IMG/VR virus record: IMGVR_UViG_3300044630_005485
Coordinates: 1-27,808 of that record
Reading direction: 5' to 3' (one strand)
From: a virus
Length of the DNA: 27,808 nt
This document shows positions 4,900-27,118 of this stretch, piece by piece (within the stretch, counting starts at the first letter, position 1; every line of letters begins with the position of its first letter). A program made the translations under genes and the position numbers. The notes below the pieces were generated by a model, which saw nothing but the letters and a program-made list of their open reading frames with translations, was not told where the DNA came from and did not search any database.

Positions 4900-5127
4900 A
4901 TGACAGTAAACGCATCTAAAGATTGGATACAGGAATTGTATGTGAAGGAGTTTATGAAACCTAAACTCCTTCCTACAGATTTTTACTATGATAAAAATGG
5001 TAGAATGGTAATGACGGAAGAGTATCACAAACGGAGAGGAAGTTGTTGTGGTAATAGATGTTTACATTGTCCATATGAACCAAAACACGAAAAAGGAAAT
5101 AATGATTTACAAAAATCCCGACAATAA
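4900..5127 (+). CDS. DUF5522-like small four-cysteine protein
   Basis: A 75-residue protein whose C-terminal half carries the motif RRGSCCGNRCLHCPYEPK (46-63), with C49, C50, C54 and C57. This matches the DUF5522 family pattern as I remember it from Bacteroidota, where a short stretch like YYDKNGRMVMTEEYH (29-43) precedes the cysteines; both parts are present here. The cysteines plausibly bind a metal ion, probably zinc or an iron-sulfur cluster. The cellular role of the family is not known to me. The ATG at 4900 immediately follows the TAA of the small upstream frame, and the stop at 5125-5127 lies inside a terminator loop. It is probably a host gene acquired by the phage, placed last in the nucleotide-metabolism operon. 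Confidence 0.8.
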   Translation: MTVNASKDWIQELYVKEFMKPKLLPTDFYYDKNGRMVMTEEYHKRRGSCCGNRCLHCPYEPKHEKGNNDLQKSRQ

Positions 5128-5140
5128 ATCGGGATTTTTT
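5111..5140 (+). terminator. Rho-independent terminator ending the replication/metabolism operon
   Basis: A perfect 10-bp inverted repeat (arms 5111-5120 and 5130-5139, core ATCCCG/CGGGAT) with a 9-base loop, ending in a run of six T's at 5135-5140. It is by far the strongest terminator-like structure I found. The TAA stop of the DUF5522-like gene (5125-5127) lies within the loop. The flanking A and T runs mean it could also act on the opposite strand, but no minus-strand gene is visible. Confidence 0.88.
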
Positions 5141-5149
5141 ATTTTATAT

Positions 5150-5159
5150 CTATTTATTA
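5150..5159 (+). promoter_or_regulatory. Candidate late promoter element upstream of gp25
   Basis: CTATTTATTA lies 10 bases after the terminator and 29 bases before the gp25 start at 5189. The identical 10-mer occurs at 7616-7625, and close variants at 16176-16185 and 25472-25481, all before structural genes. The placement right after a terminator is what a new transcription unit needs. The role is inferred from recurrence and position only. Confidence 0.45.
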
Positions 5160-5188
5160 GAAAATCCATAACATTATATTTATATAAT

Positions 5189-5725
5189 ATGGCTAATAAC
5201 GAAACTTATGGTATAAATTTTCCATTTAGACAAAGTTCATTTGGTAAGTACCTATCTTTATCTAGAGATAAGGATCAAGAAATAAGATCTAGTTTACTAC
5301 ATTTAATATTAACAAGAAGGGGTAGTAGATACATGCTACCAAATTTTGGTACTAGACTGTATGAATTTATTTTTGATCCACTTGACGGGATAACTTTTGA
5401 TGCTATTAAAGAAGACATACAACAGGCATGTGATGAGTTTATACCCGATTTAAATATCATAAGTATAACACTAACACCTTACGTTCTTTTAACAGAAAAA
5501 CAACAATCAGAGAATAAAATAATTTTTAACCCAAAAGAATATGTTTCTGAAGGAACTCTTTACCAACAGTTTGAAACAATAAATTCAGATGAAGAACTTA
5601 AAGATGTAGGTATTTATAGATTACCTGGAAAAAATACAGAGGAATATACTGCTAAACTAAAAATAGAATATTCAATAGATAATGACCCATTTGGTTCTAA
5701 ACAATTTGTTATAATTAATATATAA
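5189..5725 (+). CDS. Baseplate wedge protein, gp25 / GPW family
   Basis: The small wedge subunit that, in contractile tails, joins the baseplate to the sheath. T4 gp25 is the best-known relative, and its family is conserved in contractile injection systems. At 178 residues it is a little longer than T4 gp25 (132) because of a C-terminal extension (about 110-178). The family signature is clear: EIRSSLLHLILTRRGSR (31-47) followed by PNFGTRLYEFIFDP (51-64). I chose the ATG at 5189 (MANNETYG) rather than the longer frame opening at 5048. That extension would overlap the upstream gene and run through the terminator, and the 5189 start places the signature where the family has it. The stop overlaps the next start by one base (TAATG), so translation of gp25 and gp6 is probably coupled, consistent with their direct contact in the wedge. 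Confidence 0.93.
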   Translation: MANNETYGINFPFRQSSFGKYLSLSRDKDQEIRSSLLHLILTRRGSRYMLPNFGTRLYEFIFDPLDGITFDAIKEDIQQACDEFIPDLNIISITLTPYVLLTEKQQSENKIIFNPKEYVSEGTLYQQFETINSDEELKDVGIYRLPGKNTEEYTAKLKIEYSIDNDPFGSKQFVIINI

Positions 5726-7563
5726 TGGCTGATAGAAAAATATCATATACACAGAGAGATTTTGTTGGTTTAAGAGACGAACTACTTAATTATGTGCAAA
5801 ATTACTACCCTGAACTAATACAAAATTTTAATGACGCTTCAGTTTTTTCTGTATTAATGGATTTAAATGCCGGTATTGCAGATAATCTACATTACCATAT
5901 AGATAGGAGCTTACAAGAAACAGTATTACAATATGCACAACAAAAATCTTCAATATATAATATTGCAAGAACGTATGGTTTAAAAATCCCTGGATATCGT
6001 CCTTCTGTTGCTGTAGTGGACTTTTCAATCCAAGTACCTGCTTTTGGTGATTCTGAAGATATTAGATATTTAGGTAAGATAAAGGCGGGATCTCAATTTT
6101 TTGGTGCTGGTAATTCATTTGAAAACCAGTACGATATTGATTTTTCAACACAGTATAATGAACAGGGATATGTGAATAGAACTAAAATACCTACTTTTGA
6201 TGCTAATAATAAAATTATAAATTATGTTATTACAAAAAGAGAGGTTGTTGTAAATGGAACAACAAAAGTTTTTAAAATAGTAATAAATCCTTCAGATGTT
6301 ATTCCATTTTTTAGTTTTTTCTTACCTGAAAAAAATGTTCTTGGAGTTACTAGTATAATACAAAAAGAAGGTAGCTCATTTCAAGGAACCCCACCCTTTT
6401 CAGATTTCCAAAGTGAAAACGGAAGATGGTATGAAGTAGATGCTTTGGCTGAAGATACCGTTTTTGTTGATGACCCAACTAAACCTGTAGATGCTAATGG
6501 AGTAAGAGGTGGAAAATATATAGAAACAGATAATAGGTTTATAACCGAATATACTCCTGAAGGTTATTTAAAAGTTCAATTTGGTGCCGGCACAACAACA
6601 CCAAATGAACAATTAGAACAATTTACAAATGTAGGAGTACCTTTAAATTTGGCTGATTATCAAAATAATATAGGTTTAGGATTAACAGTAAAACCAAACA
6701 CAACATTATTTGTACAATATCGAGTTGGTGGAGGTGCGTCTACAAATGTCGGTGTAGGAGTGATAAATCAAGTTGGTACAATAGACTTTGCAATAAATGG
6801 ACCAAATCCGACTGTAACAAAAAATGTACAACAATCCTTAACATTAAGAAACGTTACCGCAGCAATAGGTGGTGCTAATCCACCAACAACGGAAGAAGTT
6901 AGAAATATGGTATCGTTTAATTTTGCGGCACAAAAAAGGGCGGTTACGGTTAATGATTATAAATCAATAATTGAAACTATGCCTGGTAGATATGGTGCTC
7001 CTGGTAAAGTTTCTATAACCGAAAAAGATAATAAAATTGTTGTACAAATACTATCATATGAAAGTGGAGGTAAATTAACACAAGTGGCTTCAAACAATTT
7101 AAAAACAAACTTGGCAACTTACTTGTCTAAGTATAGAATGGTTAACGACTATATTGTTATAGATAGTGCTAAAGTTATTGATTTAGAATTTGAAATATCA
7201 ACAGTATTAGAATCAGATAGGAATCAAAACGAAATAGTATCAACTATCATAGAACAAGTGTCTGATTATATGAACCCAAATAATAGAGATTTAGGTGGTA
7301 GTGTTAATGTTTCAGAGATTAGAAAAAGAATACAAAACTTAGGGGGAGTTTTAAGTGTCCCTGAAATAAAAGTATTTAATAAAGTTGGAGGTAACTATTC
7401 TTCTTCTGAAACTTCACAAAAATATAAAGATCCAATAACAAGAGAAATACAGTTAATTGACGATACAATTTTTGCTGAACCAGACCAAGCGTATCAAGTA
7501 AGATATGATAATGCTGATATAAAAGTTAGAACTAAAACTTTTAAAGCTGTCGACTTTTCTTAA
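5725..7563 (+). CDS. Baseplate wedge protein, gp6 / Baseplate J-like family
   Basis: The central ring-forming wedge protein of contractile-tail baseplates. In T4, gp6 dimers form the inner iris and bind gp25 and gp7. The protein has 612 residues, against 660 in T4. The N-terminus has the usual opening: KISYTQRDFVGLRDELLNY, then NDASVFSVLMDLNAGIADNL and HYHIDRSLQE, where each subunit starts with a helical segment before beta domains. A later stretch with AAQKRAVTVNDYKSIIE (about residues 398-414) is the segment typical of J-like proteins, followed by a domain with the GGSVNVSEIRKRIQNLGGV region (about 525-543). It is coupled to gp25 by a one-base overlap. No truncation is seen. The family call is strong; direct ring formation is taken from T4. 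Confidence 0.92.
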   Translation: MADRKISYTQRDFVGLRDELLNYVQNYYPELIQNFNDASVFSVLMDLNAGIADNLHYHIDRSLQETVLQYAQQKSSIYNIARTYGLKIPGYRPSVAVVDFSIQVPAFGDSEDIRYLGKIKAGSQFFGAGNSFENQYDIDFSTQYNEQGYVNRTKIPTFDANNKIINYVITKREVVVNGTTKVFKIVINPSDVIPFFSFFLPEKNVLGVTSIIQKEGSSFQGTPPFSDFQSENGRWYEVDALAEDTVFVDDPTKPVDANGVRGGKYIETDNRFITEYTPEGYLKVQFGAGTTTPNEQLEQFTNVGVPLNLADYQNNIGLGLTVKPNTTLFVQYRVGGGASTNVGVGVINQVGTIDFAINGPNPTVTKNVQQSLTLRNVTAAIGGANPPTTEEVRNMVSFNFAAQKRAVTVNDYKSIIETMPGRYGAPGKVSITEKDNKIVVQILSYESGGKLTQVASNNLKTNLATYLSKYRMVNDYIVIDSAKVIDLEFEISTVLESDRNQNEIVSTIIEQVSDYMNPNNRDLGGSVNVSEIRKRIQNLGGVLSVPEIKVFNKVGGNYSSSETSQKYKDPITREIQLIDDTIFAEPDQAYQVRYDNADIKVRTKTFKAVDFS

Positions 7564-20066: not shown

Positions 20067-22556
20067 ATGGCTTGTATATCAGGATTTACATTAGGTGGTT
20101 ACTACGAATATATTGATTGTTGTGGGTACAATCAAACCGGTTTATCTTCCGGTTTAGAAGAAGTGTGCGTTGATCAAGCATATTCAGCAACATCTATTGG
20201 TGTTTTGTTGGATTCTGGTAGTACTTGTACTATATCTTGTAATTTAGGTGAACTGAGTTATAACTTTACGGTTACAGGGACTTGTGATGCTTTAAGTGGG
20301 TCAACATTAATAACAGGTTATGGGGGAATACCACCATACACTATTGACAACATAATACCTGGAACAATTTCAGCACAAACTAGTAATAATCCTATGTTGT
20401 TTACTGGTTTAACGGGTGGTACATATGTTTTTAGAATTAACGACTCTTTAGGGTTACAAAATAATGAATTATATATAAATGTAACAATATCCGATTGTTT
20501 TACTGCGAATATTTTTAACACATCAGGAACCACTTGTGGTTTAGATAATGGTTCTTTTAGTGTCAGTGCAACTTCATTATCAGGACCATATACACTTATA
20601 ATTTATAAAGATGGTGAGTTTTACGATTTAATAGAAACAAATGTTTTACCATACAACGTAACTTCACTACCTAATGGAATTTACTATACAACAGTTTATG
20701 ATAATGGGTTTACTACCGCAAACACTGAAAATGTTATTGTAAATTCAAGTATCGGGGTTGATTTTGGTTTTTGGAAAGTCGATACATCAAATTGTCTAAT
20801 AGATAAAGGTAAACTTTCAGTGACAGGTATAACGGGTAATGGCCCTTTCACATATCTTTGGAGTACAAATGAAACAACACAAACAATTACAGGTTTAACC
20901 GCTGGAACTTATTCTTGTATTGTTACTGACTCAAATGGGTGTACAAACACAAAAAGTGCGGTTGTCGGGTTAGCACAACCTTTAGGTTTTGCATCACTAA
21001 CATCAACAAATCCAAGTTGTTTTAGTTCTGATGGGACTATGACATTTACTGTTACTGGTGGTAGTGCGCCATTTTTCTATTCTGCAGACACAAATGAAGT
21101 TGGGTATACTTTATCTAACACATTTACTATTTCTAACTTATCTAGTGGAAATCATACTGTTTTAGTTAGAGACGCTAACCTTTGTAGTGTTATTTTGTCA
21201 GGGTTTATTTCACCAATAAATGGATTTAACGTTGTCGGGACATCAATAACAAACTCAAATTGTAATTCAAACAATGGAGGATTGTACGTTCAATTACAAG
21301 GTAGTCAAATATATTATACATATTTACTTTCAGGGCAAACTAGTGGAATACTTACGGGTAATACGTCGATGAATCAAAACTATTCATTTAGCGGACTACC
21401 AAACGATAATTATTTATTAGTTATATCAGGTACGGGAACTGATTGTTCATATTTTACAAATTTAACAATATCATCTGTTGATAAATTTACAATAGATGTA
21501 ACATCTACAGGTTCTACTTGTTGGCAAAATAATGGAGTGATTAATGTAAATGTTAATAGTGGTTATACCGGAGTATTAGATTATATATTGAGCGATGGGC
21601 AATCAATAATAGACACAAATCTAAGTTCATATACTTTTAATAATTTAGCGGCAGGTACCTACACCCTTTCTGTTGTTGATCAAGATGGGTGTACTATCAC
21701 TGAAACAATAACAATACAATCACAAGGATCATTGGCTAGTGCTATTAATACTGTAGGTTGCACATCGGGTAATGACGGACAAGCGGAAGTTGTAATATTT
21801 CAAGGAGAACCAACATTTACCTATGATTGGTCGGATAATGTCTGTTGTTCACAAACAGGAGACACAGTCACAGGTCTTACTGCCGGAACATATAGTGTTA
21901 TGGTTACTGACAATAATGGATGTACGCAACTTCATAATTTTTCAATATCATGTAATAGTAATATAAGTACAGGTTACACTATATATAATATTTGTAATGA
22001 TTTTTTTACAACAACAGTTGGTGTAAAAAGAGGGTTTCTTGAAATGCTAGGTGAGGGTTATTTAGATATAACAAGTGGGTATACAGGTTGTAGTTTAAAT
22101 AGTGCTGAATATATTTGCAATTTGGAAATTAGTGGATCGTCTTACACTCAAAGTTTTTATACGGGTTATACTAGTAGTGACGTACCATCAGATTATTTAT
22201 GGAAAACAACAATTGAAGGAATATTAGATACCATACCTGATGTTGGTAGTTACACAGTTGATCCAATAAATAATCTTTTACAAATAGTTTCTGTTTGTAG
22301 TGGAGACACAAATAATTTGGGTGATCAAGAAGTAAAATTATATTTAACTATTAATTTTGATGTTGTGTGTCAAGAAGAAGCATTCCCTTGCCCAACCGCA
22401 ACACCAACCGCAACACCAACCGCAACACCAACCGCAACACCAACCGCAACACCAACCGCAACACCAACCGCAACACCAACCGCAACACCAACCGCAACAC
22501 CAACCGCAACACCAACCGCAACACCAACGCCTACACCTACACCGACAAGCCCTTAA
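20067..22556 (+). CDS. Fibre/adhesin protein with seven SprB-like repeats and a Pro-Thr tail (829 residues)
   Basis: Probably a tail fibre or surface appendage for host contact. An N-terminal Cys module (1-65, GGYYEYIDCCG, four to five cysteines) resembles the one at the end of the 164-residue protein at 22859. Then come seven repeats of about 70-90 residues, each opening with a Cys and NG/DG turn and closing in a phrase such as GLTAGTYSCIVTDSNGCT. The third and seventh are closest to the SprB repeat known from Bacteroidota gliding adhesins. A unique domain follows (about 640-772). The C-terminus is a Pro-Thr tail (776-829) encoded by an 11-copy 12-bp repeat. There is no signal peptide, as expected for a virion protein made in the cytoplasm. 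A single TAA and one codon separate it, in the same frame, from the next gene. Family calls are by motif. Confidence 0.85.
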   Translation: MACISGFTLGGYYEYIDCCGYNQTGLSSGLEEVCVDQAYSATSIGVLLDSGSTCTISCNLGELSYNFTVTGTCDALSGSTLITGYGGIPPYTIDNIIPGTISAQTSNNPMLFTGLTGGTYVFRINDSLGLQNNELYINVTISDCFTANIFNTSGTTCGLDNGSFSVSATSLSGPYTLIIYKDGEFYDLIETNVLPYNVTSLPNGIYYTTVYDNGFTTANTENVIVNSSIGVDFGFWKVDTSNCLIDKGKLSVTGITGNGPFTYLWSTNETTQTITGLTAGTYSCIVTDSNGCTNTKSAVVGLAQPLGFASLTSTNPSCFSSDGTMTFTVTGGSAPFFYSADTNEVGYTLSNTFTISNLSSGNHTVLVRDANLCSVILSGFISPINGFNVVGTSITNSNCNSNNGGLYVQLQGSQIYYTYLLSGQTSGILTGNTSMNQNYSFSGLPNDNYLLVISGTGTDCSYFTNLTISSVDKFTIDVTSTGSTCWQNNGVINVNVNSGYTGVLDYILSDGQSIIDTNLSSYTFNNLAAGTYTLSVVDQDGCTITETITIQSQGSLASAINTVGCTSGNDGQAEVVIFQGEPTFTYDWSDNVCCSQTGDTVTGLTAGTYSVMVTDNNGCTQLHNFSISCNSNISTGYTIYNICNDFFTTTVGVKRGFLEMLGEGYLDITSGYTGCSLNSAEYICNLEISGSSYTQSFYTGYTSSDVPSDYLWKTTIEGILDTIPDVGSYTVDPINNLLQIVSVCSGDTNNLGDQEVKLYLTINFDVVCQEEAFPCPTATPTATPTATPTATPTATPTATPTATPTATPTATPTATPTATPTPTPTPTSP
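22392..22523 (+). repeat. Eleven perfect tandem copies of a 12-bp unit encoding Pro-Thr-Ala-Thr
   Basis: The unit CCAACCGCAACA is repeated eleven times without any mismatch that I can find, then decays into PTPTPTPTSP coded with different triplets. Because the unit is 12 bases, gain or loss of copies by slippage changes the stalk by four residues and keeps the frame. All three forward frames stay open through it, so short overlapping frames here are artefacts. Confidence 0.97.
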
Positions 22557-22559
22557 AAT

Positions 22560-22847
22560 ATGCCAACATCTTTAAATATATCGGGAATTACTGGTGGTGT
22601 ACCACCTTATACTTTTTATGTTTGTGATGAATATGGAAATAATTGTTCTGTATTAGGAACAACAGGTGGAACATATGTGTTAAATTCATTTTATTCTACT
22701 GCAAATACTTTAATGATAAAAGTAATTGATAGTGTTAGTTGTGAATTTTTTACTTTAATTACTTGTCCTGAAGATTTATGTATTATTTTAACCGAACTTG
22801 GTGAAGATATGAGAACAGAAGACGGGTTTAATTTAGTATACTGTTAA
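22560..22847 (+). CDS. Small stand-alone SprB-like module protein (95 residues)
   Basis: A single small beta domain (1-68: NISGITGGVPPYTFYVCD, a second Cys in NNCSVLG, then LMIKVIDSVSCEFF) followed by a short acidic tail ending TEDGFNLVYC. The same plan recurs in the proteins starting at 22859 and 27131, so these three are paralogues. The pattern ITGG-PPYTFYV matches the SprB-like repeats of the upstream protein. The start ATG is three bases after the upstream stop and in the same frame, so the two could be one protein split by a single TAA. I infer a fibre-associated part. Small size lowers certainty about the start, but the paralogues begin at the equivalent position, which supports it. Confidence 0.72.
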   Translation: MPTSLNISGITGGVPPYTFYVCDEYGNNCSVLGTTGGTYVLNSFYSTANTLMIKVIDSVSCEFFTLITCPEDLCIILTELGEDMRTEDGFNLVYC

Positions 22848-22858
22848 TATTTATTTTT

Positions 22859-23353
22859 ATGTTAATACAAGTAACAGGGGTAACAAACGGTATTGGTCCA
22901 TATGATATTTTTTTATGTGATTGGAATCTTACGGGATGTTTTTATGTGTCAGGGGTAACCACAATACCACCTAATATAATAATTGATAGTAATGATTATT
23001 TTCCAAGTAATCAATTATTAAAATTAAAAATTATTGATGACTATGGATGTGTTGAAATAATTGACTTACCATGTGAACCCACACCTACCCCTACCCCTAC
23101 TGCAACACCAACACCTACCCCTACCCCTACACCAACTCCTACACCACTACCTTGTGATTGTTATACTTTAACAGGAACAAATCCGGCTGGCGGGACTTTT
23201 GGTTATCACGATTGTAGTAATGTTTATACAACTTCATCGGTCGGTAGAGGAGTATCTGTTAATGTATGTATGACATCTGCACCGACATTAATTAGTGGTA
23301 ATGGAACATCTACTTATAATGGTGCATGTATTGCGGGAGTTTGTCCACCATAA
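22859..23353 (+). CDS. Fibre module protein: SprB-like domain, Pro-Thr linker, Cys module (164 residues)
   Basis: Three parts are visible. Residues 1-72 are an SprB-like module (VTGVTNGIGPYDIFLCD, then LLKLKIIDDYGCVEI), paralogous to the proteins at 22560 and 27131. Residues 74-98 are a Pro-Thr linker. The last 65 residues form a Cys module (CDCYTLTGTNPAGGTFGYHD, then VSVNVCMTSAP) resembling the N-terminus of the 829-residue protein. It therefore shows the building blocks in a single small protein. The ATG is 11 bases after the preceding stop, preceded by a TATTTATT stretch. No export signal is seen. A fibre or decoration role is inferred from shared modules and position. Confidence 0.75.
   Translation: MLIQVTGVTNGIGPYDIFLCDWNLTGCFYVSGVTTIPPNIIIDSNDYFPSNQLLKLKIIDDYGCVEIIDLPCEPTPTPTPTATPTPTPTPTPTPTPLPCDCYTLTGTNPAGGTFGYHDCSNVYTTSSVGRGVSVNVCMTSAPTLISGNGTSTYNGACIAGVCPP
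23078..23152 (+). repeat. Pro-Thr linker-coding repeat with an internal 20-bp direct repeat
   Basis: Encodes residues 74-98 of the 164-residue protein. Bases 23081-23100 and 23111-23130 are identical. The codons (CCT ACC, CCT ACA) differ from the CCA ACC GCA ACA unit at 22392, so the same peptide is written with different DNA in the two genes. Confidence 0.85.
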
Positions 23354-23405
23354 TTTACTATACAGATTAAAAAATAGTTTTATATCATTTGATTAAAACT
23401 TATCT

Positions 23406-24653
23406 ATGAGTATCTTTGTCCAAATCGCATCATATAGAGACCCTGAATTAATACCAACATTAAAAAGTTGTTTAGAAAACGCTAAAAATCCTGAAAAAAT
23501 ATTTTTTGGTATATGTAAACAATACCATCCCGAAGACACGTTTGATGACTTATCTGAATATGAGAATGATAGTAGATTTAGAATAATTAATGTTCTTTAT
23601 AGCGAGGCAAAAGGGGTTTGTTGGGCAAGAAATCAAGTCCAACAACTTTACAATGGTGAAGACTATACTTTACAGATTGATTCGCATATGCGTTTTGAAA
23701 AAAATTGGGACGAAACATTAATTGATATGTTAATTGGTTTACAAAATAAAGGTTATGAAAAACCACTATTAACTAGTTATGTATCATCTTATAACCCACA
23801 AAACGACCCAGAAGGTAGGGTTAATGTTCCTTGGAGAATGGTTTTTGATAGATTTATACCTGAAGGTGCGGTTTTCTTTTTACCCGAAGTAATCCCTAAT
23901 TGGGAAACAATGACAGAACCAATCACCGCAAGATTTTATTCTGCTCATTTTTGTTTTACTATTGGTAAATTTTCAGAAGAAGTACAACATAATCCAGATT
24001 TTTATTTTCATGGCGAAGAAATATCAATAGCTGTTAGAGCATACACACATGGGTATGATTTGTTTCATCCACACAAAGTTATTATTTGGCATGAATATAC
24101 TAGAAATGGTAGAACAAAACATTGGGATGATGATAAAGAGTGGTGGAAATTAAATGAAAAGGCGCATAGTTTAAATAGACAACTTTTTGCTATGGATGGA
24201 AATATTAGAGCTGGACATGATGGAAAATATGGATTTGGAAAAGAAAGAACATTAAGAGATTACGAAAAGTATGCGGGAATATTATTTGAAAAAAGAGGGG
24301 TACAAAAATATACATTAGAAAAAAATTACCCACCAAACCCACAAACTTATGAAACAGAACAAGAGTGGATTAAAAGTTTTTCAACACCATTTAAGCACTG
24401 TATTAATCTTCACAAAACTCTTTTAAAACATGATGATTACAATTTTTGGGCTGTAATTTTTTCTGATGAAAATGGTAAAGAATTGTTCAGAAAAGATTGT
24501 GATAAAAACGAATTAACAGGATATTTAAATTCTAATAATGATTTAATGAACATTTGGAGAGAATTTGATTCCATAACTAAACCATCAGAATGGATTGTTT
24601 GGGCACATTCTGAAAAAAACGGTTGGGCTGAAAGAATAACTGGTAAAATATGA
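23406..24653 (+). CDS. Glycosyltransferase of the GlcNAc-transferase family (PF11397-like)
   Basis: Likely transfers a sugar, probably GlcNAc from UDP-GlcNAc, to a protein or glycan acceptor in the cytoplasm. The 415-residue protein has a GT-A layout: MSIFVQIASYRDPELIPTLK (1-20) is the family's opening, YSEAKGVCWARNQVQQLY (65-82) follows, and LQIDSHMRF (89-97) holds the metal-binding D92/H94 pair. A later stretch with YFHGEEISIAVRAYTHGYD carries the likely catalytic acidic pair, followed by IIWHEY. Relatives include the Dictyostelium enzyme that adds GlcNAc to hydroxyproline of Skp1. The last 120 residues are of unknown function. It overlaps the next glycosyltransferase gene by 4 bases (ATGA), so the two are translationally coupled, and both lie among fibre genes. 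Its only TGA stop among the window's genes is a minor oddity. The acceptor is unknown. Confidence 0.85.
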   Translation: MSIFVQIASYRDPELIPTLKSCLENAKNPEKIFFGICKQYHPEDTFDDLSEYENDSRFRIINVLYSEAKGVCWARNQVQQLYNGEDYTLQIDSHMRFEKNWDETLIDMLIGLQNKGYEKPLLTSYVSSYNPQNDPEGRVNVPWRMVFDRFIPEGAVFFLPEVIPNWETMTEPITARFYSAHFCFTIGKFSEEVQHNPDFYFHGEEISIAVRAYTHGYDLFHPHKVIIWHEYTRNGRTKHWDDDKEWWKLNEKAHSLNRQLFAMDGNIRAGHDGKYGFGKERTLRDYEKYAGILFEKRGVQKYTLEKNYPPNPQTYETEQEWIKSFSTPFKHCINLHKTLLKHDDYNFWAVIFSDENGKELFRKDCDKNELTGYLNSNNDLMNIWREFDSITKPSEWIVWAHSEKNGWAERITGKI

Positions 24654-25444
24654 ATATAAAAAACCCCACAATAGTTACTGCATTATTTGATATTGGTAGA
24701 GATACTTGGGACTCTTATAATTTAAGTTATGGTTCTTATCTACATTGGATGAGATCATTACTAATGTATGATAATCAGATGGTTATTTTTACTGATGAAA
24801 AACTTTTAGATGAAATTAAAAAAAATAGATTAGTCGCGGACCCCCGTTTAGAAAAAACAATATTTGTTGTTAGCGATGTGTCTAATATCGATGCATACAA
24901 AATGTATTACGATAGAATAAAAGAAATAATGGAAAGCTCAGAATTTCAAACAAAAAAACAATTCAATGTTCCTGAAATGACTAAACCATTATACAACGTA
25001 GTTATTTTTAATAAAATATTTTATATTAAGGAATGTATCCAAAAAAATTATTTTAATTCTGATTTTTACATTTGGATGGATGCGGGTGTACTTAGAAATG
25101 ATATAAATGAAGTTGTATTAAATTGGCCTAATTTGAATAAAATAAATGAAAAATATTTTGATAAAATAACATTTTTTAGTCATGAAGTGCCTGTACCATA
25201 TATTGAACCGCACATGCATCTTGTTTCACAATACAGATTTATACATGGTGGAAGTTTTTTTGTGCCAAACAATGGATGTATATTAGAATTTATTAATGAC
25301 TTTACATATTTAGTGGAAAAATATCTAAATGAGGGATATGTTGGTAGTGAAGAAAAGTACTACGATTTTTGTTATTTAAAAAATCCAAACAATTATAATA
25401 TAGTTAAATCAGATTGGAGACAATATTTCAATATATTCTCATAA
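24650..25444 (+). CDS. HtrL/YibB-like putative glycosyltransferase
   Basis: A 264-residue protein resembling the HtrL/YibB (WlaTC) family, whose members sit in polysaccharide loci and are thought to be glycosyltransferases. The opening IVTALFDIGRDTW (8-20) is the family's start; YLHWMRSLLMYDNQMVIFTD (30-49) follows. IWMDAGVLRN (141-150) contains the DxG motif at D144, in the position of a metal/nucleotide-sugar-binding acid. A His/Gly segment (FIHGGSFFVP, about 197-206) comes later. No membrane segment is visible, so it would act in the cytoplasm. Overlap by 4 bases with the upstream GlcNAc-transferase-like gene suggests the two enzymes act on the same acceptor or build a short sugar chain. 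The acceptor may be the fibre proteins around it or a host polysaccharide; the sequence does not say. Confidence 0.78.
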   Translation: MNIKNPTIVTALFDIGRDTWDSYNLSYGSYLHWMRSLLMYDNQMVIFTDEKLLDEIKKNRLVADPRLEKTIFVVSDVSNIDAYKMYYDRIKEIMESSEFQTKKQFNVPEMTKPLYNVVIFNKIFYIKECIQKNYFNSDFYIWMDAGVLRNDINEVVLNWPNLNKINEKYFDKITFFSHEVPVPYIEPHMHLVSQYRFIHGGSFFVPNNGCILEFINDFTYLVEKYLNEGYVGSEEKYYDFCYLKNPNNYNIVKSDWRQYFNIFS

Positions 25445-25471
25445 AAAATTTTTAATAAAATAAACTTTAGG

Positions 25472-25481
25472 TTATTTATAA
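25472..25481 (+). promoter_or_regulatory. Candidate late promoter element, variant TTATTTATAA
   Basis: Lies in the 54-base gap after the glycosyltransferase pair and 17 bases before the ATG at 25499. It matches the elements at 5150, 7616 and 16176 except for the first base and one later base. The gap is AT-only around it, so the match could be by chance. Confidence 0.33.
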
Positions 25482-25498
25482 TATAAAGTATAAAATAG

Positions 25499-27118
25499 AT
25501 GGCAGACGTAGTTTTAAGTAGTTGTTGTTATAATAACCTAGTTTATAGTGCAACTAGTTGGCCATATACTACAACAGTAGGTTCTGGTTTTGAAATAACT
25601 AGCGATACTAATATTATAGACGGATGTTATAAAATTGTAACCGGCATCACTACCGGAATTACCGTTACGGTTGATGGTGACGTGTTATCAAACACTGCAT
25701 GTGGTTCAGGTTGTACTGATTATTGTTGTTCAGAATCATTATGTGTTGATATTCCTTTATCAGCATATACAGATTTAAATGATACGTATTATTTATCAGG
25801 AACATATAATAGTAAAGGGTATTGGAGTGGAACAACGGGTAATGGTTTTATATTTTTTGATGGCATAAAATGGTGTTTAAGTACTACTTTAGGCGGTGCT
25901 TGTGATTTTTATGGATCTAACCCTGTAAATCCAATAAACGAGAATTGTCCTGACATTGACGAAACCATAATGTACCAGGGTGTTTGTGTTCCTACACCAA
26001 CACCATATGATCCTTGTAGTGTTTTAGATTTTGATGTTTTTTTAGATTGTGATTTCCCCACACCGACTCCAACTTTAACTCCGACAGCAACACCAACACC
26101 CACACCAACACCCACACCAACCCCAACAGTAGATGCGTGTTTAGGATTTAGTGCAAATATTTCTGTTGTTGAAGTAACCCCAACACCCACACCAACAGTA
26201 ACACCACAACCAACACCTTGTTTTATTGATGTAACACCATCTGCAGATAGTGTAACATATTTAATTGATTCTGGTAAATTTATTTGTACAAGAGTTAAAG
26301 AGTTAGTTGACTGTAACTCTTTTGAAAAATACTACATTACACAGCCTTTAGAAATAAGTGGAACACCAATATCTACAGGTACAACAATATTGGCTGTTGT
26401 TAGTAATCAAATTAAATGTGTTACATACACAAGAGAAACATTTGATAGTACAAATGCTATTTTAGAATTAATTATTAGTGCTTATAGTGGTAATTGTAGT
26501 GTTTGTGTTACCCCAACCCCTACACCTACACCTACGGCAACCCCTACACCTACACCTACGGCAACCCCTACACCTACTCCAACACCAACTTCATATCCTA
26601 TGGGAACTCAATTTATTTTTACTTCATGTACATCAAACACAATGATTATACAAACGGCAGTACCACCATCTAATCTTTGTGAAACAAATGTTTTACAAGA
26701 CGGTAACGGGGATTGTTGGACATACGTTACAAATGTTGTTGGATATTACCCAACAACAGGATTTATAACTTCAAATCAAGATGTATTTACGGCAACAACA
26801 GCAACAACATACGCAACTTGTGTTGAATGTTTTACTCCACCACCAACACCAACCGCAACCTATAAAGAATGGAAAGTTAAAGGAGAATATACTGTGTCTT
26901 GTCCTGTTTGTGAATTAACAAACTTTGGAACAGATATAACAATTTATACATCTTCAAGTGTACTTACATTAACAAATGGTGTCGTAACATACAAAGATAG
27001 TGGGATGACTATCCCATTAAATGTGGATTACATTAAGTACGGAGACTATATATATCAAGTAAACGACACTACGGGTGTATTAACACAAAAATGTAAAGTT
27101 AACGGATTTTGTAGTTAA
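25499..27118 (+). CDS. Cys-rich fibre protein with Pro-Thr linkers (539 residues)
   Basis: A modular appendage protein. Residues 1-186 hold many cysteines in close groups (SSCCYNN, GSGCTDYCCSESLC, then GIKWCLST) and a probable beta module near 78-150. Long Pro-Thr linkers follow at residues 187-210, 227-240 and 338-364, with a short one near 447-454; each separates a folded module of roughly 20-100 residues containing two or more Cys. The last module (about 455-539) ends CKVNGFCS. The layout is that of beads joined by extended stalks. No signal peptide is visible. It directly follows the two glycosyltransferase genes, which makes the Thr-rich linkers possible acceptors. I do not recognise a named family. 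The cysteines may form disulfides outside the cell or bind metal. Confidence 0.78.
   Translation: MADVVLSSCCYNNLVYSATSWPYTTTVGSGFEITSDTNIIDGCYKIVTGITTGITVTVDGDVLSNTACGSGCTDYCCSESLCVDIPLSAYTDLNDTYYLSGTYNSKGYWSGTTGNGFIFFDGIKWCLSTTLGGACDFYGSNPVNPINENCPDIDETIMYQGVCVPTPTPYDPCSVLDFDVFLDCDFPTPTPTLTPTATPTPTPTPTPTPTVDACLGFSANISVVEVTPTPTPTVTPQPTPCFIDVTPSADSVTYLIDSGKFICTRVKELVDCNSFEKYYITQPLEISGTPISTGTTILAVVSNQIKCVTYTRETFDSTNAILELIISAYSGNCSVCVTPTPTPTPTATPTPTPTATPTPTPTPTSYPMGTQFIFTSCTSNTMIIQTAVPPSNLCETNVLQDGNGDCWTYVTNVVGYYPTTGFITSNQDVFTATTATTYATCVECFTPPPTPTATYKEWKVKGEYTVSCPVCELTNFGTDITIYTSSSVLTLTNGVVTYKDSGMTIPLNVDYIKYGDYIYQVNDTTGVLTQKCKVNGFCS
26057..26128 (+). repeat. Pro-Thr linker 1 coding repeat
   Basis: Encodes residues 187-210 of the 539-residue protein as PT dipeptides with one PTLT and one PTAT. 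It contains short 12-base repeats of a CCAACACCCACA type, a different codon pattern from the linker at 22392. Confidence 0.8.
26510..26590 (+). repeat. Pro-Thr linker 3 coding repeat with a 24-bp tandem duplication
   Basis: Encodes residues 338-364 of the 539-residue protein. Bases 26519-26542 and 26543-26566 are identical 24-base units (PTPTPTAT), followed by a partial third copy. Length change in this unit would also keep the frame. Confidence 0.85.

Follow-up and report, generated by a model that had tools for sequence, protein, structure and literature searches.

A putative mucin-type O-glycosylation cassette for Thr-Pro tracts in the tail module of a large phage

Introduction

Family GT60 enzymes of Dictyostelium and Trypanosoma cruzi initiate mucin-type O-glycosylation with N-acetylglucosamine (GlcNAc), and one of them modifies a hydroxyproline of Skp1 (PMC8724618); a DxH metal-binding motif is common to families GT27 and GT60 (PMC7185993). 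In bacteria, O-glycans on the Thr-Pro linkers of cellulases, such as those of Cellulomonas fimi and CelA of Caldicellulosiruptor bescii, protect from proteolysis (PMC6151902, PMC12757957). Phage virions can also be glycosylated: structural proteins of mycobacteriophages carry glycans according to the brief account of Freeman et al. 2023 in PMC12619734, and at least two virion glycoproteins are reported for Xanthomonas phage XacN1 (PMC5852040). The locus described here lies in IMG/VR virus record IMGVR_UViG_3300044630_005485 (the window: the whole record of 27,808 bases), a linear fragment of 31% GC, where three proteins with Thr-Pro tracts accompany two glycosyltransferase genes, here called GT1 and GT2. 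With a probability of roughly 0.7, judged from sequence and predicted folds, GT1 attaches a sugar to Thr and Ser in tracts that the phage itself encodes, and GT2 lengthens the glycan. No paper on Thr-Pro tracts together with GT60 in phages was found by literature search.

Thr-Pro tracts of the window

A preliminary description of this DNA had placed five Thr-Pro tracts in three proteins, and translation bears this out. The proteins, tracts and enzymes are as follows (aa, amino acids; HexNAc, N-acetylhexosamine):

20067..22556, plus strand: 829-aa protein with SprB-type repeats (PF13573, E 1.7e-13) and a C-terminal (PTAT)n tail; proposed acceptor 1
22392-22553, plus strand: tract 1, translating as PTAT x11 then PTPTPTPTSP
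22859..23353, plus strand: 164-aa protein with an internal Thr-Pro linker; proposed acceptor 2
23078-23152, plus strand: tract 2, translating as PTPTPTPTATPTPTPTPTPTPTPLP
23406..24653, plus strand: GT1, PF11397/GT60-type glycosyltransferase; proposed initiating polypeptide HexNAc-transferase
24650..25444, plus strand: GT2, HtrL_YibB (PF09612) GT-A-like enzyme; proposed chain extender
25499..27118, plus strand: 539-aa protein with three Thr-Pro linkers; proposed acceptor 3
26057-26128, plus strand: tract 3, translating as PTPTPTLTPTATPTPTPTPTPTPT
26177-26218, plus strand: tract 4, translating as TPTPTPTVTPQPTP
26510-26590, plus strand: tract 5, translating as TPTPTPTPTATPTPTPTATPTPTPTPT

All three proteins hold tracts as dense in Thr, Ser and Pro as those by which mucin-type O-glycoproteins are recognised; the observed amount of tract was reached by none of 2000 residue shuffles in any of them, and the three large neighbouring proteins examined contain no tract. 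The DNA of tract 1 is a perfect 12-bp repeat (CCAACCGCAACA, 11.4 copies, 22392-22528), and its length may be partly owed to slippage; tracts 2-5 mix their Pro and Thr codons and so are kept as protein. An origin of the tracts by chance or as microsatellites was rejected, the perfect DNA repeat being confined to tract 1. The four later tracts are internal, in keeping with the stalks or linkers first proposed; tract 1 departs from that description, as it forms a C-terminal tail with a stop codon directly after it. Homologues of the 829-aa protein occur in about 20 compared loci, several with a further domain beyond the tract; those of loci L004, L006, L014, L019 and L020 run about 100-260 residues past the tract start, whereas the window protein ends with the tract. 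A tip domain may have been lost or replaced in the window (22392-22556).

The two glycosyltransferases

GT1 (415 aa) matches PF11397 with an E of 1e-71 (242.7 bits against a cut-off of 21, residues 54-295), the match through which it is termed GT60-type, and phrog_24687 with an E of 1.9e-168. GT2 matches PF09612 over the whole protein (residues 6-263, E 1.4e-23, 84.3 bits against a cut-off of 24.1). The genes sit between the second and third tract proteins and share an ATGA overlap at 24650-24653; the overlap and the family matches uphold the earlier claim of two coupled glycosyltransferase genes at 23406-25444. A DSH motif (D92-S93-H94), which is a DxH in place of a DxD, is invariant among 42 aligned relatives of GT1, as is an HGEE motif (202-205); a WHEY motif around residue 229 is invariant or almost so.

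No solved relative of GT1 or GT2 was found by sequence search; structural matches come from fold comparison. The AlphaFold2 model of GT1, built from the alignment of the 42 relatives, has a predicted local distance difference test score (pLDDT) of 87. Foldseek places polypeptide N-acetylgalactosamine (GalNAc) transferases (ppGalNAc-Ts), the initiators of mucin glycosylation, best, at 36 of the best 37 matches (E 2e-10); in VIA the first 29 rows are all ppGalNAc-Ts (Z 17.2-20.0, mostly over residues 1-327), with 2d7i at Z 20.0 over 277 aligned residues and a root-mean-square deviation of 3.7. As modelled, GT1 is a GT-A fold near GT27. Residues 325-415 (24378-24650) form a predicted beta-rich C-terminal region outside the ppGalNAc-T match, where those enzymes hold their lectin domain; no lectin domain is matched in GT1 by Pfam, and the fold match lies mostly in residues 1-327, the C-terminal part not having been searched alone. 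The model of GT2 (pLDDT 93.7) returns weak, broad GT-A matches, such as the xyloside xylosyltransferase XXYLT1 and LARGE1 (E about 1e-5), which name no sugar.

Co-occurrence of enzyme and tracts

IMG/VR was scanned with GT1, giving 113 relatives of which 80 were compared (81 loci with the window included). A strict Pro-Thr test finds a tract within 10 kb of GT1 in 72 of the 81 loci; a broader Thr/Ser/Pro test finds a mucin-like tract near GT1 in 75/81, against 6/79 random loci and 3/34 random AT-rich viral loci of at least 7 kb. When whole GT1-bearing records are read, 80 of 81 contain such a tract. Among the six loci without one nearby, three have PTPTPT motifs in the whole record (one with a single site), two have poly-Thr tracts such as TTTTTTQPITTTTT, and the last is an 8.5-kb fragment. 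Enzymes occurring in related phages without tract proteins would have spoken against the idea; every phage record that bears GT1 and is long enough to be useful has a Thr-rich tract. In the other direction, PF11397 is present in 11 of 50 records chosen by a PTPTPTPTPT DNA pattern and in 1 of 50 random records (p 0.004); the single GT60 record in the random sample also holds a Thr-rich tract. GT60 and HtrL were found together in six of 100 records chosen for neither, GT60 alone in six and HtrL alone in one (p 5e-6).

A control was attempted within the clade that shares a 302-aa neighbour gene (w302 clade); enzyme and tracts proved inseparable there, since nearly every locus of at least 17 kb has tracts and many contigs are fragments, and complete jumbo phages were used instead. 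GT1 occurs in only three cultured phage records, Xanthomonas phage XacN1 and Stenotrophomonas phages RAS14 and CM1; these were compared with 14 related complete or near-complete jumbo phages, chosen by tail sheath similarity. The three phages with PF11397 have 31, 11 and 11 PTPTPT sites, whereas among the 14 without it 12 have none and two have one each; the reversed pattern has no site in any of the 17. In XacN1, ORF334 is the GT1 homologue (48% identical) and ORF330 an HtrL protein, and the proteins that hold the tracts are of two kinds: large ones encoded next to baseplate, tail sheath and structural genes, and a series of proteins of 400-750 residues. The tract proteins are ORF180, 232-237, 325, 350, 369, 370, 372 and 384. 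A search for isolates related to the window through its 980-aa neighbour protein returned none.

Bacterial loci

Fifteen relatives came out of a scan of 84,980 species genomes; some of them look like phage contigs and others cellular. In five bacterial loci GT60 is paired with one Ser/Thr/Pro-rich protein, and a sixth is a weak version of this pairing; the partner protein of GT60 plus HtrL in such loci has the look of a secreted one. A Verrucomicrobiales contig has GT60 and no Ser/Thr/Pro-rich neighbour. In an isolate of Jiulongibacter sediminis the gene of a 262-aa Thr/Pro-rich protein is divergent to the GT60 gene, after which come a carbamoyltransferase and a protein joining FkbM methyltransferase and HtrL; the tract gene is itself followed by another PF11397 gene. 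In a Saprospiraceae contig the tract protein, which carries a type IX secretion tail (PF18962), lies beside GT60 and HtrL, and a Bacteroidia contig is arranged similarly. The Gemmatimonadota loci have, directly before GT60, a PqqD-domain protein whose tail is rich in Ser, Thr and Pro and is short in one of three cases:

L425:6933-10459: cassette with HtrL after GT60 (locus checked)
L421:9158-11269: cassette
L419:9488-11269: cassette

The PqqD-domain protein has a twin-Arg-like stretch, and an unannotated open reading frame (ORF) resembling an HprK-type kinase lies just upstream. Two of the paired loci in the Bacteroidota/Gemmatimonadota set have a GC of 0.67-0.69. Because the bacterial pairings are compact and free of phage genes, a shared location in the tail module is less able to explain the association.

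Possible accessory enzymes

A GT2 homologue is present in 72/83 loci. Many relatives have a longer protein of about 555 aa, in which HtrL is joined to another domain that is GT-A-like and bears an EDDM motif. A carbamoyltransferase adjoins GT60 both in phage (XacN1 ORF333, L396:20792-23089) and in a bacterium (L418:11238-12809) and may decorate the glycan. The FkbM methyltransferase domain fused ahead of the HtrL_YibB domain in Jiulongibacter sediminis (L418:12806-15148) suggests a methylated glycan in that species. Tandem GT60 gene pairs occur at G067:C1:5780-8300 and G142:C1:56429-58658, and acceptors may be shared out between the two enzymes.

The probable acceptor residue

The residue that is kept in the tracts was assessed by counting five-residue contexts, in which PTxTP denotes Thr kept with Pro replaced, and TPxPT denotes Pro kept with Thr replaced. 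The ratio of PTxTP to TPxPT is 626:83 in GT1 phages, 531:25 in the w302 clade and 101:27 in XacN1 plus RAS14; in viral contigs that bear tracts and have a GC of at least 0.45 it is 26:49. Ser makes up 50 of the 83 replacements in GT1 phages; like Thr, it carries a hydroxyl. The selection filter required at least 5 Pro and only at least 4 Thr per stretch scored, and is not a source of Thr bias because it demands more Pro than Thr. Repeated poly-Thr tracts such as ITTTTTTINPITTTTTT are found in the GT60-bearing phages L406 (G095), L407 (G096), L009, L013 and L016, and are nearer to trypanosome mucins than to Pro-Thr linkers. As Thr is kept over Pro and relatives carry poly-Thr tracts, the sequences point to Thr/Ser as the acceptor residue.

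Weighing of alternatives

Several observations weigh against a joint function of enzyme and tracts. GT27 outscores the other GT-A folds by a modest margin (the best of these reaches a VIA Z of 17.2), and likeness of the modelled fold to GT27 leaves the acceptor unfixed. No PF11397 was seen in 39 of the 50 records chosen by the PTPTPTPTPT pattern; in the w302 clade GT1 is present in only 15/44 contigs, with tracts in 44/47 loci of at least 17 kb. The surveyed viral relatives are not independent of one another, and RAS14 and CM1 appear nearly identical, so that the jumbo-phage contrast represents two lineages at most.

The alternative that survives best, though we consider it unlikely, is that the tracts serve as bare spacers, whereas the targets of the enzymes are other molecules, such as surface glycans of the host or phage DNA, the two being joined in a shared variable tail module. 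DNA and host serotype are known targets of phage glycosyltransferases (PMC12619734), and many viral contigs have tracts and no visible GT60, among them w302-clade contigs of 112-162 kb; as most tract-bearing contigs without GT60 are fragments, its absence from them is weak evidence. Against bare spacers, the characterised GT60 and GT27 enzymes act on protein Ser/Thr or hydroxyproline, conservation of Thr is unexpected for a mere spacer, bacterial loci without phage genes keep the pairing, and the complete relatives that lack GT60 have one PTPTPT site at most.

It is very unlikely that the co-occurrence reflects only shared ancestry and AT-rich composition within one phage clade. Many of the surveyed contigs are indeed related, and residue-shuffled ORFs still give a mucin-like stretch in 35/81 GT1 loci because the proteins are Thr-rich. 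The pairing nevertheless turns up again in XacN1 and RAS14, which over the stretches compared have only GT1 and GT2 in common with the window, in Bacteroidota and Gemmatimonadota loci (two of them GC-rich, as given above) and in the single GT60 record of the random sample; the joint occurrence of GT60 and HtrL in records chosen for neither is also far above chance.

Sugar on tract hydroxyproline after the action of a prolyl hydroxylase, as in Skp1 and as the preliminary description had allowed, is very unlikely: some GT60 enzymes do glycosylate hydroxyproline (PMC8724618) and the tracts are rich in Pro, but it is Pro that varies, some tracts having almost none, and the prolyl-hydroxylase-type family PF13640, the one oxygenase family searched (a host could supply such an enzyme), is found in only 3/32 related records and not in the window or the complete XacN1 or RAS14 genomes. 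The prolyl hydroxylase route was rejected as the main mechanism. The likeness first drawn to the Dictyostelium Skp1 enzyme identified the right family (PF11397); that enzyme is a special case, and the Thr-directed GT60 mucin enzymes fit better.

Gene order and proposed mechanism

Phage replication genes and T4-like baseplate wedge genes lie upstream of the tract region; from about 7.6 kb on there are large proteins, mostly without a database match, and then the tract region itself, which includes a further small gene:

5048-5725 and 5725-7563, plus strand: T4-like baseplate wedge genes, two ORFs (PHROG 261, 43, 219)
22560..22847, plus strand: 95-aa protein without a tract, conserved between tract proteins

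The tract region is assigned to the tail module because the wedge genes (5048..7563) precede it. This gene order favours the earlier designation of the tract proteins as virion proteins, for which they themselves give no direct match.

Glycosylation by the phage of its own tracts is favoured by their association with the enzyme in phages, complete relatives and bacterial loci, and it is the hydroxyproline part of the original idea that falls away. On this reading the phage, a large T4-like one that probably belongs to a host among the Bacteroidota, would carry in this region a self-contained cassette for mucin-type O-glycosylation. GT1 is predicted to be a GT60-type polypeptide alpha-HexNAc-transferase, with uridine diphosphate (UDP)-GlcNAc as donor by family precedent; in the host cytosol it would glycosylate Thr (and Ser) residues within the tracts of the three tail-module proteins, these acceptors being made from the same gene block as the enzymes. 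GT2, translationally coupled to GT1, would add a further sugar to give a short O-glycan. The outcome would be a series of spacers, extended and glycosylated, that separate adhesin domains; the benefit is most likely stiffness and protease resistance, and may parallel that of bacterial cellulase linkers.

A broader proposal, to which we give even odds, is that prokaryotes own a mucin-type protein O-glycosylation in which a nucleotide-sugar-dependent cytosolic GT60 initiator and an HtrL_YibB extender, sometimes with a carbamoyltransferase, act on Thr/Ser-rich tracts; large phages would use it for tail proteins, and free-living Bacteroidota and Gemmatimonadota, in compact clusters, for a single exported protein. 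If true, mucin-type O-glycosylation, usually described for animals and protists, would have a bacterial and viral counterpart with a related enzyme fold, which bears on the origin of the eukaryotic pathway. It would also explain why virion glycoproteins are reported for XacN1, assign a role to phrog_24687 and to PF09612 (which Pfam lists as a 'protein of unknown function'), add adhesin spacers to the few parts of phage virions that are glycosylated, and provide a cytosolic enzyme for the production of mucin-like glycoproteins in bacteria.

Comparison with known systems

Mycobacteriophage glycans are placed at the C-termini of capsid and tail-tube subunits, and the account cited above, as far as it goes, names no Thr-Pro tract or GT60. 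XacN1 is like the window phage in its GT1 homologue (ORF334), its HtrL protein (ORF330) and its many Thr-rich tracts; in the sections consulted of PMC5852040 the authors do not connect enzyme and tracts. The cellulase system of C. bescii resembles the window in having an enzyme gene near the acceptor gene (PMC6151902; PMC12757957); cellulase linkers differ in being modified on an exported protein by unrelated membrane GT39 mannosyltransferases that use a lipid-linked donor.

The GT27 polypeptide GalNAc-transferases of animals and Toxoplasma provide the closest solved folds over residues 1-327 of GT1 and share its DxH motif; identity is about 12%, Pfam recognises no ricin-type lectin domain in GT1, and the model has its own beta-rich C-terminal region of about 90 residues. 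The GT60 alpha-GlcNAc-transferases of Dictyostelium and Trypanosoma cruzi, including the Skp1 enzyme, resemble GT1 in PF11397 and in the DxH motif, and Thr-rich or Thr-Pro tracts are the likely acceptors of both GT1 and the protist mucin enzymes. The protist mucin enzymes act in the Golgi, whereas GT1 is encoded by a phage, is presumably cytosolic and is coupled to an HtrL_YibB enzyme.

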